This document shows, piece after piece, positions 7,118-29,382 of a stretch of DNA of 64,000 nt. A model generated the notes under the pieces. The model was not told where the DNA came from. It made no database searches and saw only the letters and a program-made list of their open reading frames with translations. Position 1 is the first letter of the stretch. Every line of letters begins with the position of its first letter. The stretch is from Acidobacteriota bacterium. GTDB lineage: Bacteria; Acidobacteriota; Terriglobia; Acidiferrales; UBA7541. Where the stretch lies: assembly GCA_003167215.1 (NCBI GenBank), contig PMTV01000014.1, forward strand, positions 1 through 64,000, in the 5' to 3' direction. The position numbers and the translations under genes are program-made.

Positions 7118-7741
7118 CTAATATTTTCGCAGCACTCCCACTACTCGTCCTTGTACTTTTACATCCGCAGCCAAAACGATGATGGGGGCCATCTGCGAGT
7201 TCGCCGGCTGGAGCCTGACCTTCCCGCCCGGTTCGCGGTAAAAACGCTTCACCGTGGCCTCGTCTTCTCCGACCAGCGCCACAACGATCTCCCCGGGGTT
7301 GGCCACTTGGGTTTGTTCTACAACTATGTAATCACCGTCGAGAATGTGATCGTCGCGCATGGATTCGCCGCGCACTTGCAAAACGTATGTGTTCTGTCCG
7401 CGGGCGAAATCAGCCAGCGAGATTGTTTCGCGGTCCTCTACCGCTTCCAAGGGCCGTCCGGCCGCGATGCGTCCCGCCAGCGGCAGTTCCACTACGTGGC
7501 GATCGAGCAATTGCTCGCGTATGGGCTTGGGGAGCTGCATGACTTCGATTGACCGGCTTTGATTGTATCCGCGGCGGATGAAACCCTTTTTCTCCAGGGT
7601 GGAGAGATGCTTATGCACCGTCGCCAACGAAGTCAGCTTCAATGAGCTCGCAATTTCTTCGAAACTCGGCGAGTAGCCGTTTTTGTTAAGGAATCCGACC
7701 AAGTAGTCCAGGACTTCCTTTTGCCTCTTCGTCAGTGTCAT
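7118..7741 (-). CDS. lexA: LexA repressor, SOS regulator
   Basis: Represses DNA-damage genes and inactivates itself by RecA-stimulated cleavage. The 207 residues begin MTLTKRQKEVLDYLV, the standard LexA start; in-frame codons extend upstream but would run into the promoter. Residues 1-65 are the winged helix-turn-helix. The cleavage site is Ala94-Gly95 in RIAAGRP, and the dyad is Ser127 (GESM) and Lys165 (ATVKRF), all intact. The recognition helix region (SLATVHKHLSTLEKKG) resembles the Gram-positive/alphaproteobacterial type. A DinB-family gene follows after 16 bases. The promoter and a putative operator lie at 7770-7798. It is divergent from a MutS-like gene. Confidence 0.97.
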   Translation of the reverse strand: MTLTKRQKEVLDYLVGFLNKNGYSPSFEEIASSLKLTSLATVHKHLSTLEKKGFIRRGYNQSRSIEVMQLPKPIREQLLDRHVVELPLAGRIAAGRPLEAVEDRETISLADFARGQNTYVLQVRGESMRDDHILDGDYIVVEQTQVANPGEIVVALVGEDEATVKRFYREPGGKVRLQPANSQMAPIIVLAADVKVQGRVVGVLRKY

Positions 7742-7769: not shown

Positions 7770-7798
7770 ACTGTAGGCGAACTAAAAGCGAAAGTCAA
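7770..7798 (-). promoter_or_regulatory. lexA promoter with overlapping putative LexA operator
   Basis: On the minus strand TTGACT (7793-7798), 17 bases, TACAGT (7770-7775). The spacer is filled by the 20-bp element at 7775-7794, whose plus-strand sequence is AGGCGAACTAAAAGCGAAAG. It contains two GCGAA units 11 bp apart. Near-copies occur upstream of recA (17000-17019) and the helicase-nuclease gene (26328-26347). Position and geometry suggest autorepression. The region is shared with the divergent MutS-like gene. Confidence 0.65.
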
Positions 7799-15806: not shown

Positions 15807-16901
15807 CTATCGCGCCGAGCGACCTTGCACAGCGGCTGCCGCTTTAGGCGCCTGTTTCGGCGCTTCGGCTGCTGCTGGCTTGGCCTGATCTTCCACCGAA
15901 GCAAGATTTGTCGGCAGGCCCAATAGCTTGCGCAGGTCGTGTTCGATCTTCGCGCGGATGTCCTTGTTTTCCTTAAGGAACAGCCGGGCGTTGTCGCGTC
16001 CCTGCCCCAGGCGTTCGTTCTTATACGAGATCCACGTGCCCGATTTTTCGAGCAGGCCCTTGGCCACACCCAAATCGACCAAGTCGCCCTCGCGCGAAAC
16101 ACCTTCGCCATAAATGATGTCGAACTCCGCTTCGCGGAACGGCGCAGCCACTTTGTTTTTCACGATCTTTGCGCGAGTGCGCGAGCCTACCACGCGATCG
16201 CCTTCCTTGATGGACTGTATGCGCCGAATATCCACGCGAATCGAAGAGTAAAACTTCAGCGCGCGCCCGCCCGTGGTTGTTTCCGGGTTGCCGAACATCA
16301 CCCCGATCTTTTCGCGAATCTGGTTGATGAAAATCAGGCAGGTCTTCGACTTCGACACAATCGCCGTCAGTTTTCGCAGCGCCTGCGACATTAAGCGCGC
16401 CTGTAAGCCCATCTGCGCGTCACCCATGTCGCCTTCGAGCTCCGCGCGCGGAACCAGGGCCGCCACAGAGTCCACCACGATGATATCCACAGCATTCGAG
16501 CGAATCAGCGCTTCGGCAATTTCCAGCGCCTGTTCCCCATTGTCCGGCTGCGAAACCAAAAGATTGTCAACATCCACGCCTAGCTTTCGCGCGTAAGAAG
16601 GATCCAAGGCGTGCTCAGCGTCGATGAAGGCCGCCTGCCCGCCCAGCCGCTGCGCCTCTGCGATCACGTGGAGCGTCAGCGTGGTCTTGCCCCCTGATTC
16701 CGGGCCGTATACTTCAATCACGCGGCCACGCGGGAAACCTCCCACACCCAGCGCAGCGTCAATCGAGATCGACCCGGTCGGTATCACGTTCACCGGAACC
16801 AGCACATCCTTGTTTCCCAGGCGCATGATCGAGCCTTTGCCATACTGTTTTTCAATTTGCGATATCGCTAGATCCAAATTTTTTGTTTTTTCGTCGTTCA
16901 T
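15807..16901 (-). CDS. recA: RecA recombinase
   Basis: ATP-dependent strand-exchange protein and coprotease for LexA. The 364 residues from the ATG at 16901 (GAGGT six bases upstream) show Walker [13 protein letters not shown] near 66, [15 protein letters not shown] (Walker B), [20 protein letters not shown] (loop 1/2 region) and [15 protein letters not shown]. The core is normal. The C-terminal tail, acidic in most RecA proteins, is here Ala/Lys/Arg-rich (ending GRSAR). A possible -10 (TAGGAT, 16989-16994) and a LexA-like element (17000-17019) lie 90-120 bases upstream. Damage induction is inferred. Confidence 0.98.
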
Positions 16902-16988: not shown

Positions 16989-17019
16989 ATCCTAACACGA
17001 GGCGAAGAAAAAGCAAAAG
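16989..17019 (-). promoter_or_regulatory. recA promoter region with putative LexA operator
   Basis: The plus-strand sequence at 17000-17019 is AGGCGAAGAAAAAGCAAAAG, identical at 17 of 20 positions to the lexA element. It lies just upstream of a possible -10 (TAGGAT on the minus strand, 16989-16994); the -35 would fall inside the element. The gene starts at 16901. Confidence 0.6.
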
Positions 17020-26327: not shown

Positions 26328-26347
26328 AGGCGAAAGAAAAGCGTAAC
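26328..26347 (+). promoter_or_regulatory. Putative LexA operator upstream of the helicase-nuclease gene
   Basis: AGGCGAAAGAAAAGCGTAAC matches the lexA-upstream element at 16 of 20 positions, with GCGAA and GCGTA 11 bp apart. It ends 35 bases before the start codon and 20 bases before a possible -10 (TATCAT, 26368-26373), so it would cover the -35 region. Confidence 0.6.
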
Positions 26348-26382
26348 CCCTTCGCTTTGAATTCCGCTATCATGGTTGCCCG

Positions 26383-29382
26383 ATGGCTCAGGCGACCACA
26401 CGTGAAAACTTTGCTGCGTTGAACGCACAGCAACGTCGCGCTGTGGAACACGGCGAGGGCCCGCTCCTAGTCGTCGCCGGGGCCGGAACCGGTAAAACGC
26501 GCGTCATCACTGAACGGATTCGCTATCTCCTGGAATCGAATCCGGAGCTTGCCGGCGAAAACATTCTGGGACTGACGTTCACGGACAAAGCTGCGGGCCA
26601 AATGAAGTCTCGCGTCGTGAAATCAGTTGGCGAGCGCGCCGAAGGCATCTGGCTCAGCACCTTTCACAATTTCTGCCTGGAAAAAGTCCTTCGCGTCGCG
26701 AACCCGGACTTAAAGGTGCTCGAGGACGTCGATCACTGGATACTGTTGCGGCGTCATATGGCCGAGCTGGACCTGAAACATTTCAGGCGTTTGGCGGCGC
26801 CGGGCGAATTCCTCTACGATTTCCGGCAATTCTTTTCGCGCTGCCAGGATGAGCTGGTCACGCCCGATGATTACCAGAGCTATGTTGACAAATCGTGGCA
26901 AGCCTATCTCGAACGTCGAGAATTGCTCGAGCCCGACGCGCGCACGCTCGAAGAAGAAGAACTGGCCCGCCGGGAAGAACTCGCACGCGTTTACCGCGTG
27001 AGCGAACGATTGTTGCGGGAGCGAAACCTGCTCACCTTCGGCGCGCAATTGATGCAAACGGTGCAATTGTTGCGATCCGATGCCGCTCTTTTGCAAAGCC
27101 TGCGCGATCAGTTTCATTACATTCTGGTGGACGAATTCCAGGACACCAACATCGTCCAGCTCGAACTGCTTTGGCTGCTGGCCGGCGACCGCGGAAATAT
27201 CGTTGCGGTTGGCGACGACGACCAGGCCATCTATCGTTTCCGCGGCGCTTCCTTCGGCAGCTTCACGATTTTCCTGAAACGCTTCTGCGGAGTTACGGAT
27301 AAAAATCTTACCGACGGAGTGCGCCGGTTCATCGCGCCATTGACACAAAATTACCGATCCACCACGCGAATCCTGCGCGTGGCGGGCGAAGTGATTTCGC
27401 ACAACGAAAAATCGCCCTTGCTGCCTCCCAAGACCTTGACCACCGACAATTCCGACGGCGAAAAGATTCGCGTCGCTGAATTCGGCCGCCCCGAAGAGGA
27501 AGCGCACTGGATCGCCTCGGAAATCGAGCGCTTGCACCTGCCCGGAAATCCCTGGCGCAACTTCGCCGTGCTCTATCGCAAACACGCGCACGTGAAACGC
27601 CTGATCGAAGCGCTGCAGCAGCGGAAGATTCCCTTCGTCATCAAGAAATTCTCGATTCTATCCAGTACGGTCGTGCGCGATCTCTTGGCCTACCTGCGGC
27701 TCATCGCCGTTCCTTCTGACAATGTGGCCTGCGCGCGTGTGCTCGCTGCGCCGTACTGGAGGCTTCAGCCGCGCGACTTGGTCCGTCTCGCGGAACGCGC
27801 GGGGAAAAATCACCGCCGGTCATTGAGCGACGAAATCGACGCGGCGCAAAGCGAATTGCAATTTGCATCCGAAGCATCGCGTCTCCCGGAACTCGTAGCT
27901 TTTTTGGCGCGTTTCCGCAAAGCCGCGCGCAAGACTTTCGCCAGCGCGTTGCTGGACGAATTGATTTCCTCCTTGGAACTTGCGCCGCTTCCCTTTGAGG
28001 CCGACCGCCGGTACCTCGAACGCTTCGTGCAATTCGTGAAGGATTGGGAGCAAAAGAGCGAGGGAAAAAGCCTGCGCGACTTTATCGAATATCTGGATTA
28101 TTTCGCCGAAGCCTCCGGTGATATATGTCTGGAAGAAGAATCGGCCGATGATGCCGTGCAGTTGATGACCGTGCATTCGGCGAAAGGCCTCGAGTTTCCG
28201 CACGTTTTCATAATGCACCTCAATAAGAACGATTTCCCCTCGAACGCGCGCCCGGTCAAATTCGAATTCCCCCCGGAAATGATGAAAGAGGAAAAACCAA
28301 CCGGAGATTTTCAGATCCAGGAAGAGCGGCGGCTGTTTTATGTCGCTCTGACGCGCGCCCGCCAGCGGCTTACCCTTTCGACTCTTAACAATAAATGGAA
28401 AAAGCCTTCGCTCTTCCTGGAAGACTTCTTGCGGAACGCGAAAATACAGAAGGGCGACACGGCGCAGTCGGCGCCGCAGATCACCGTGCCGCCGTCCCAG
28501 GAAATCACGGGCTCGGCACCTGAATCTTCCGATCCCTCGCAATTATTTTCGTCCAACGTAGGACAGGATGAAAACGCGCGCGCTTATTCCCGCGTCGCGC
28601 TCTGGGCCAAAGCCTACCATCCGCCGGTAGCCGAACCGTTGCAACTCAGCGCTTCCGCCATCGAGTGTTACTGCAAATGCCCCATGCAATATTTGTTTCA
28701 AAATATGTGGAGCATTCGCGGCGGCCCGCGCGCCACCATGACTTTTGGAAGCGTGATGCATACCACCATCAAGGAATTCGCCGGCGGCATGGCCAAGCGC
28801 GGAAAATTCCCTTTCGAAGACGTAATGGCGGTTTACGATCGCGAATGGCGCTCCATGGGTTTTCCCGACGACTATCAGGAAGAGGAATACCGCAAAGCCG
28901 GCCGCGAACAGCTCGAGAATTTCCATCGCTCCTACGCGGCCGCCCCGCCGGACATGGCGCACCAGGAAAAATCGTTCGAGCTTCACCTCGATCATGACGT
29001 CATTGTGAAAGGCCGCATGGATCAGGTGAACCGGCTGGGCTCAAAAGAAGTGGAAATCGTGGACTACAAAACGGGCAAGCCCAAGGACGCCAAAAAGGCC
29101 AAGGACAGCTTGCAACTCAGCGTTTACGCTCTGGCGGCTGAAGAAGTGCTGGAACTGAAACCGGAACGCCTGGTTTTTTACAATCTGACCACCAACGAAG
29201 CAGTCGCGAGTGAGCGCGACGCGAAAGCACTGGCGAAAACGAAACAGACTATCTACGAAGTGGCCGACCAGATTCGCGCCGGTGAGTTTCCCGCCAAGCC
29301 GAGTTTTCTCTGCGTGTATTGCGATTACAGACCGCTGTGCCCCGCGCACGAACAATTAATTTCGATTCAACCGGCCAGATAG
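26383..29382 (+). CDS. UvrD/Rep-type helicase fused to a RecB-like, Fe-S-cluster nuclease
   Basis: Single-chain ATP-dependent helicase/nuclease of 999 residues, probably for DNA break processing. The helicase part (about 1-680) has Walker A AGAGTGKTRV (about 33), ILVDEFQDT (about 248), GDDDQAIYRFRGA, the QNYRSTTRIL motif and VHSAKGLEFPHVF. The nuclease part (about 740-995) has an upstream Cys in IECYCKCPMQY, His in SVMHTT, Asp in KGRMDQV, the VDYKTG catalytic block, and CVYCDYRPLC. The four-cysteine arrangement matches AddB/Cas4-type 4Fe-4S nucleases. No AddB or RecC partner is adjacent. A LexA-like element lies upstream, suggesting damage induction. Confidence 0.9.
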   Translation: MAQATTRENFAALNAQQRRAVEHGEGPLLVVAGAGTGKTRVITERIRYLLESNPELAGENILGLTFTDKAAGQMKSRVVKSVGERAEGIWLSTFHNFCLEKVLRVANPDLKVLEDVDHWILLRRHMAELDLKHFRRLAAPGEFLYDFRQFFSRCQDELVTPDDYQSYVDKSWQAYLERRELLEPDARTLEEEELARREELARVYRVSERLLRERNLLTFGAQLMQTVQLLRSDAALLQSLRDQFHYILVDEFQDTNIVQLELLWLLAGDRGNIVAVGDDDQAIYRFRGASFGSFTIFLKRFCGVTDKNLTDGVRRFIAPLTQNYRSTTRILRVAGEVISHNEKSPLLPPKTLTTDNSDGEKIRVAEFGRPEEEAHWIASEIERLHLPGNPWRNFAVLYRKHAHVKRLIEALQQRKIPFVIKKFSILSSTVVRDLLAYLRLIAVPSDNVACARVLAAPYWRLQPRDLVRLAERAGKNHRRSLSDEIDAAQSELQFASEASRLPELVAFLARFRKAARKTFASALLDELISSLELAPLPFEADRRYLERFVQFVKDWEQKSEGKSLRDFIEYLDYFAEASGDICLEEESADDAVQLMTVHSAKGLEFPHVFIMHLNKNDFPSNARPVKFEFPPEMMKEEKPTGDFQIQEERRLFYVALTRARQRLTLSTLNNKWKKPSLFLEDFLRNAKIQKGDTAQSAPQITVPPSQEITGSAPESSDPSQLFSSNVGQDENARAYSRVALWAKAYHPPVAEPLQLSASAIECYCKCPMQYLFQNMWSIRGGPRATMTFGSVMHTTIKEFAGGMAKRGKFPFEDVMAVYDREWRSMGFPDDYQEEEYRKAGREQLENFHRSYAAAPPDMAHQEKSFELHLDHDVIVKGRMDQVNRLGSKEVEIVDYKTGKPKDAKKAKDSLQLSVYALAAEEVLELKPERLVFYNLTTNEAVASERDAKALAKTKQTIYEVADQIRAGEFPAKPSFLCVYCDYRPLCPAHEQLISIQPAR

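Follow-up and report, generated by a model that had tools for sequence, protein, structure and literature searches.

Results

Genes and elements at the three sites

The window, the whole stretch of 64,000 nucleotides that we analyzed, lies at the beginning of a 431-kb contig in a genome of 3.78 Mb. Related 20-bp elements lie upstream of lexA, recA and a helicase-nuclease gene, and had been proposed from the letters of the window as a candidate SOS operator. The features are listed below.

7118..7741, minus strand: lexA, 207 aa (NCBIfam TIGR00498 lexA, 201.8 bits against a cut-off of 110.95; PDB LexA chains)
7770..7775, minus strand: putative -10 hexamer TACAGT of the lexA promoter, assigned by position and conservation
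7775..7794, minus strand: predicted LexA operator at lexA, CTTTCGCTTTTAGTTCGCCT in lexA sense, TTCGC-N6-TTCGC; matrix rank 1
7793..7798, minus strand: -35 hexamer TTGACT of the lexA promoter, from the sequence; TTGAC- is retained here in many relatives
15807..16901, minus strand: recA, 364 aa (NCBIfam TIGR02012, 557.8 bits)
17000..17019, minus strand: predicted LexA operator at recA, CTTTTGCTTTTTCTTCGCCT in recA sense, one mismatch in the first half-site; matrix rank 3
26328..26347, minus strand: predicted LexA operator ahead of the helicase-nuclease gene and in the opposite orientation to it; matrix rank 2
26350..26369, plus strand: another copy, degenerate, CTTCGCTTTGAATTCCGCTA, flanked by the first box and the start of the helicase gene; two mismatches, 14.0 bits (matrix rank 5)
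26383..29382, plus strand: UvrD-type helicase fused to a PD-(D/E)XK nuclease (AddA-like), 999 aa (Pfam UvrD-helicase, UvrD_C, PDDEXK_1)

The lexA gene at 7118..7741 encodes the sole LexA found in the genome. The protein combines a winged helix-turn-helix domain, with the recognition helix TSLATVHKHLS, and the self-cleaving SOS peptidase domain, and aligns with PDB LexA chains over its full length. The Ala-Gly cleavage site and the Ser/Lys pair are visible by eye in its sequence.

A check of the sequence placed all three 20-mers, in plus-strand letters, at the coordinates of the original prediction, and reproduced the identities given there: 17/20 between the lexA and recA sites and 16/20 between the lexA and helicase sites. 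Read toward its gene, the lexA site is TTCGCTTTTAGTTCGCC and the recA site is TTTGCTTTTTCTTCGCC. In lexA sense the element reads as a direct repeat, TTCGC-N6-TTCGC, with an 11-bp step. The half-sites have the same orientation at all three sites, where two like units (GCGAA-like in plus-strand letters) follow each other 11 bp apart. The palindromic LexA boxes of the E. coli and Bacillus types were ruled out, as there is no inverted repeat at the three sites. The literal GTTC-N7-GTTC was ruled out as well: the lexA site reads TTTC-N7-GTTC, and the recA and helicase sites deviate more. Among the lexA sites of the class, the base preceding TTC carries 0.2 bits; being hardly conserved, the leading G of GTTC lies outside the core. 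The first half-site is TTTGC at recA and TACGC at the helicase gene, and given these deviations, binding at the two sites may be weaker. The degenerate copy at 26350..26369 may be a second operator, but it is a weak candidate for which a chance origin is also conceivable.

In lexA sense the promoter reads TTGACT-TTCGC-TTTTAG-TTCGC-C-TACAGT. The element had been said to fill the spacer between the two hexamers exactly; this holds for the 17-bp direct repeat, which makes up the whole spacer, and not for the 20-mer, which overlaps TTGACT by two bases and TACAGT by one. The box lies between the -35 and -10 hexamers of lexA, which is an autoregulatory position. The exact fit could also be read in another way, namely that the repeat is a promoter element (an extended -35/-10 spacer or a sigma-factor site) common to damage genes and not a repressor site, kept in place by promoter constraint. 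However, helix-turn-helix dimer sites have just this geometry, a direct repeat with an 11-bp step, and the orientations of the box, described below, also bear on this explanation.

The element exceeds chance expectation

We constructed a weight matrix from 43 distinct sites at 74 lexA promoter loci, all of other species and with two near-identical genomes left out, and scanned both strands of the window (~128,000 positions). The lexA site ranked first with 31.8 bits, followed by the helicase site with 24.7 bits and the recA site with 18.9 bits, while the fourth-best score in the window was 15.4. The recA and helicase sites are absent from the training set, which makes this test independent. 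Across 95 genomes of the order, there are 305 matches to the exact core TTCGCYTTNNNTTCGCCT versus 2 for the backward pattern, a control that is imperfect in that TTCGCTT is identical when reversed; at least one exact core is present in 92 of the 95 genomes. Searches of this genome alone with looser thresholds found 9 sites versus 6 for the backward control at up to one mismatch, which is hardly an enrichment, and 34 versus 42 at up to two mismatches, where there is no enrichment. With little or no excess at one or two mismatches, single imperfect sites are not trustworthy by their sequence alone; the signal comes from sites that match exactly or nearly so, and from where they lie.

The box is conserved at orthologous lexA and recA promoters

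A perfect TTCGC-N6-TTCGC is carried by all 76 regions upstream of lexA that were examined in the class. Windows of equal size taken elsewhere at the same loci yielded 0-7 of about 73 with a looser pattern. Among the recA orthologues of the order, the box is found within 350 bp in 25/30, nearly always as TTTGCTTTTTNTTCGCC, so that the deviating first half of the recA box is itself conserved. The five recA promoters with no box within 350 bp all belong to a single genus (g2). Those g2 genomes that were looked at again have the box some 400-550 bp ahead of recA, beside a second box of opposite orientation. Three g2 loci (L433:654-857, L434 and L435) have a conserved 67-aa ORF with the pattern M[HR]GFSS.VLSCLER.RLEE.L.EAR.RGRNLSRLR between the double opposed box and recA; it may act as a leader or encode a co-induced small protein.

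The helicase box is present, in either orientation, in 14 of the 15 same-genus orthologues examined, and is not near the gene in the orthologues examined from most other genera. In the family f4, taken to be that of Acidobacterium capsulatum, a box within two mismatches occurs in 19/20 recA upstream regions (L409-L428), mostly as TTCGCYTTTTNTTTGC and ~76-170 bp upstream. The lexA promoters of this family mostly read [AG]TTCGCYTTTTATTCGC, which aligns in register with the box described here.

The original prediction had staked itself on conservation at orthologous lexA and recA promoters, and the counts bear it out. They also bear on the possibility that the three elements are a chance likeness of A-rich stretches ahead of three genes. 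The absence of any excess of two-mismatch sites over the control in the loose one-genome search agrees with chance, but the ratio of exact matches across the 95 genomes, the first three matrix ranks and the unbroken series of lexA promoters do not. We give chance a vanishingly small probability, and reject it on the conservation of the element at orthologous promoters. The argument that sharing among three DNA-damage genes goes beyond chance therefore stands.

Further targets and a provisional regulon

Exact or one-mismatch sites were found on contigs C18, C4, C36, C66, C9 and C61 of this genome. The C18 box lies between imuA-imuB-dnaE2 and a divergent gene for an Lhr-like DEXH helicase. A box upstream of imuA-imuB-dnaE2 had been anticipated, and with it both recA and the translesion-polymerase genes of this genome carry the element. 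Further boxes are located before dnaB (C36), at a DECH-box helicase gene (C66) and, as a less clear case, inside an ORF (C61), and two boxes precede a radical-SAM gene on C4. The paired C4 boxes (C4:76236-76286; L326:2237-2287) are 33 bp, or three helical turns, apart, with the nearer one placed between TTGACA and TAAGAT; it is possible that they are cooperative operators. The exact box on C9 (C9:27540-27557; L325:2541-2558) is likewise less clear: it lies near an MFS drug-efflux transporter gene and miaB, neither of which is a usual SOS gene, and ORF153, which spans this box, is unlikely to be a gene. Neither uvrA nor ruvC is among the genes with near-exact sites in this genome. The Y-family polymerase gene on C41, which is the best match to the box-linked one of relatives, has no convincing box in the surroundings examined.

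Of 90 exact sites sampled in relatives, 74 flank a recognised family, mostly of SOS type. The families comprise Y-family polymerase (16), lexA (12), dnaB (9), imuA/recA (7), RecA-like c6 (7), radical SAM (6) and DECH/Lhr helicases (4), together with DinB-superfamily genes (12 and 10), which are often divergent over one box. At several g2 loci (L248, L249, L255 and L258), a single box lies between divergent DinB_2/YfiT-like and DUF1572 genes, an arrangement that suggests that this DinB-superfamily pair is damage-inducible and thiol-transferase-like. At both c6 loci examined (L431:410-3629 and L432:427-3700), a box-driven c6 gene, whose product is degenerate and RecA/Rad51-like (about 210-240 aa), is followed by a gene for a family-B DNA polymerase (PF00136, about 805 aa), and at L431 the pair is followed by an ORF with WGR/DNA-ligase domains. 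The c6 and polymerase pair looks like an SOS-controlled alternative polymerase cassette.

The orientation of the box is consistent within each family and differs between families. It is sense in 28/28 cases at lexA and Y-family polymerase genes, and in 0/27 at dnaB, radical-SAM, imuA and DECH helicase genes, where it is antisense. Such family-consistent mixed orientation is expected of an operator and not of a promoter element, which would have one orientation; the two opposed copies at recA of g2 likewise argue against a promoter element. Together with the dimer-site geometry of the repeat, these observations leave that explanation extremely improbable, despite its account of the filled spacer at lexA.

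The predicted operator changes together with the LexA recognition helix

We extended the comparison to 110 further lexA promoters across Acidobacteriota, most of which again carry an 11-bp direct repeat, with the half-site variants TTCGC, TTCAC, TACGC and TACAC. Promoter labels were set from the DNA alone and then tabulated against the recognition helix, with residues in E. coli numbering. A clear label required at least 9 of 10 matches, a level that ~1% of shuffled regions reach, and the table covers 33 families. Shuffled sequence was used as the control for these labels, as reversed upstream sequence scored high, TTCGCTT being self-reversing.

Asn41 is accompanied by A at the fourth half-site base (TTCAC/TACAC) in 10/10 families and other residues at this position by G (TTCGC/TACGC) in 22/23 (Fisher p = 1.2e-7 by family), and an aromatic residue 40 is accompanied by A at the second base in 4/4 versus 2/26 (p = 0.0005), with the reservation that these family-level p values ignore shared ancestry. 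Across the phylum, the operator sequence changes together with LexA residues 40-44. The LexA of the window, with Ala at E. coli position 41 (its own residue 40; SLATVHKH) and the operator TTCGC, fits the rule. A phylogeny-aware test of the association on a LexA C-terminal-domain tree (36 rows, 1-3 independent pairs) was not significant. This is because about three changes are needed on the tree for either trait, leaving too few independent pairs for a sign test.

On balance, we lean slightly toward the view that LexA operators of Acidobacteriota keep a constant 11-bp geometry while two bases of T[T/A]C[G/A]C drift according to a helix code. With the same slight preference, the code would read Asn41 as A and Ala/Gly41 as G at the fourth base, and an aromatic residue 40 as A at the second. 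We regard the code, drawn from the correlation, as a strong lead with few evolutionary events beneath it. If true, a global repressor would have a specificity code of natural origin, and its regulon would track the mutations that the repressor acquires. The correlation opens a mutational test of how LexA could change its target without loss of the regulon.

The co-variation also bears on which protein binds the element. DdrO is a non-LexA damage regulator of Deinococcus, and a DdrO- or PafBC-like regulator could in principle bind the element, with lexA merely one of its targets. Non-LexA damage regulators do exist in other phyla, PafBC being an example (PMC6789036). Such a regulator, however, would leave the co-variation of the operator with LexA residues 40-44 without explanation, and the box lies within the lexA promoter in every relative of the class examined, as autoregulation predicts. 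We consider another regulator highly improbable.

The strongest evidence for LexA as the predicted binder is the co-variation of the operator half-site with its recognition helix in the 33 families. The three elements are thus very probably SOS boxes for the LexA encoded at 7118..7741, and we annotate them as predicted operators. The proposal of a candidate SOS operator was supported by all tests run, both at orthologous lexA and recA promoters and at other SOS genes.

Discussion

By analogy with the LexA family, a LexA dimer would bind TTCGC-N6-TTCGC with one recognition helix per half-site. Located in the spacer of the lexA promoter, the repressor would block RNA polymerase, and LexA would limit its own synthesis. 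Upon DNA damage, RecA on single-stranded DNA would trigger the self-cleavage of LexA and the operators would become empty. The emptied operators would allow the induction of lexA, recA and the helicase-nuclease gene, as well as imuA-imuB-dnaE2, dnaB, the radical-SAM gene and the DEAD/DEAH helicase genes. A probable SOS operator is hereby defined for a large, mostly uncultured soil lineage, making its damage regulon predictable from sequence.

The original prediction knew of no description of this motif, and in this it was mistaken: the LexA box of A. capsulatum had already appeared in print (Mazon et al. 2006, Microbiology 152:1109-1118), in a study that later papers cite by its title and as a direct-repeat case (PMC7739468, PMC3323433). 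The A. capsulatum box comes from the same phylum and class, is a direct repeat, and has the present box in register with it. The unit described here, TTCGC-N6-TTCGC, is fuller: the GC after TTC is conserved and the leading G is not. The box of the 2006 study by Mazon and colleagues is said to be GTTC-N7-GTTC, of the alphaproteobacterial type and demonstrated by gel shift, and recA of A. capsulatum reportedly has no LexA box, whereas recA of the present order has one. Our comparison suggests that the recA gene of Acidobacteriaceae, said to be boxless, carries a slightly degenerate box. The published acidobacterial box is thereby sharpened from GTTC-N7-GTTC to TTCGC-N6-TTCGC.

The alphaproteobacterial box (GTTC-N7-GTTC in Caulobacter) shares with the present one the direct repeat, the 11-bp step and the TTC core (PMC12700426; PMC9578287 Table 1). 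The Caulobacter example quoted in the former, GTTCttgttatGTTC, has no GC after TTC, unlike the present box. The Balneolaeota box TTACACATATTTTWTACATA is a direct repeat from a different phylum, reported as an independent origin of direct-repeat recognition (PMC7739468); its TACA unit resembles the TACAC half-sites that certain acidobacterial families have. The LexA of E. coli is a homologous winged helix-turn-helix protein, but its box is the palindrome CTG-N10-CAG and not a direct repeat, and its helix reads SPNAAEEH versus SLATVHKH here. Our literature search, which was thin on subscription journals, found no paper on the wider acidobacterial regulon or on the correlation between helix and operator. 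As SOS operators the three sites are ordinary and their kind is known, and the direct-repeat class is not new; as far as we have checked, the fuller consensus, the provisional regulon and the phylum-wide correlation are.
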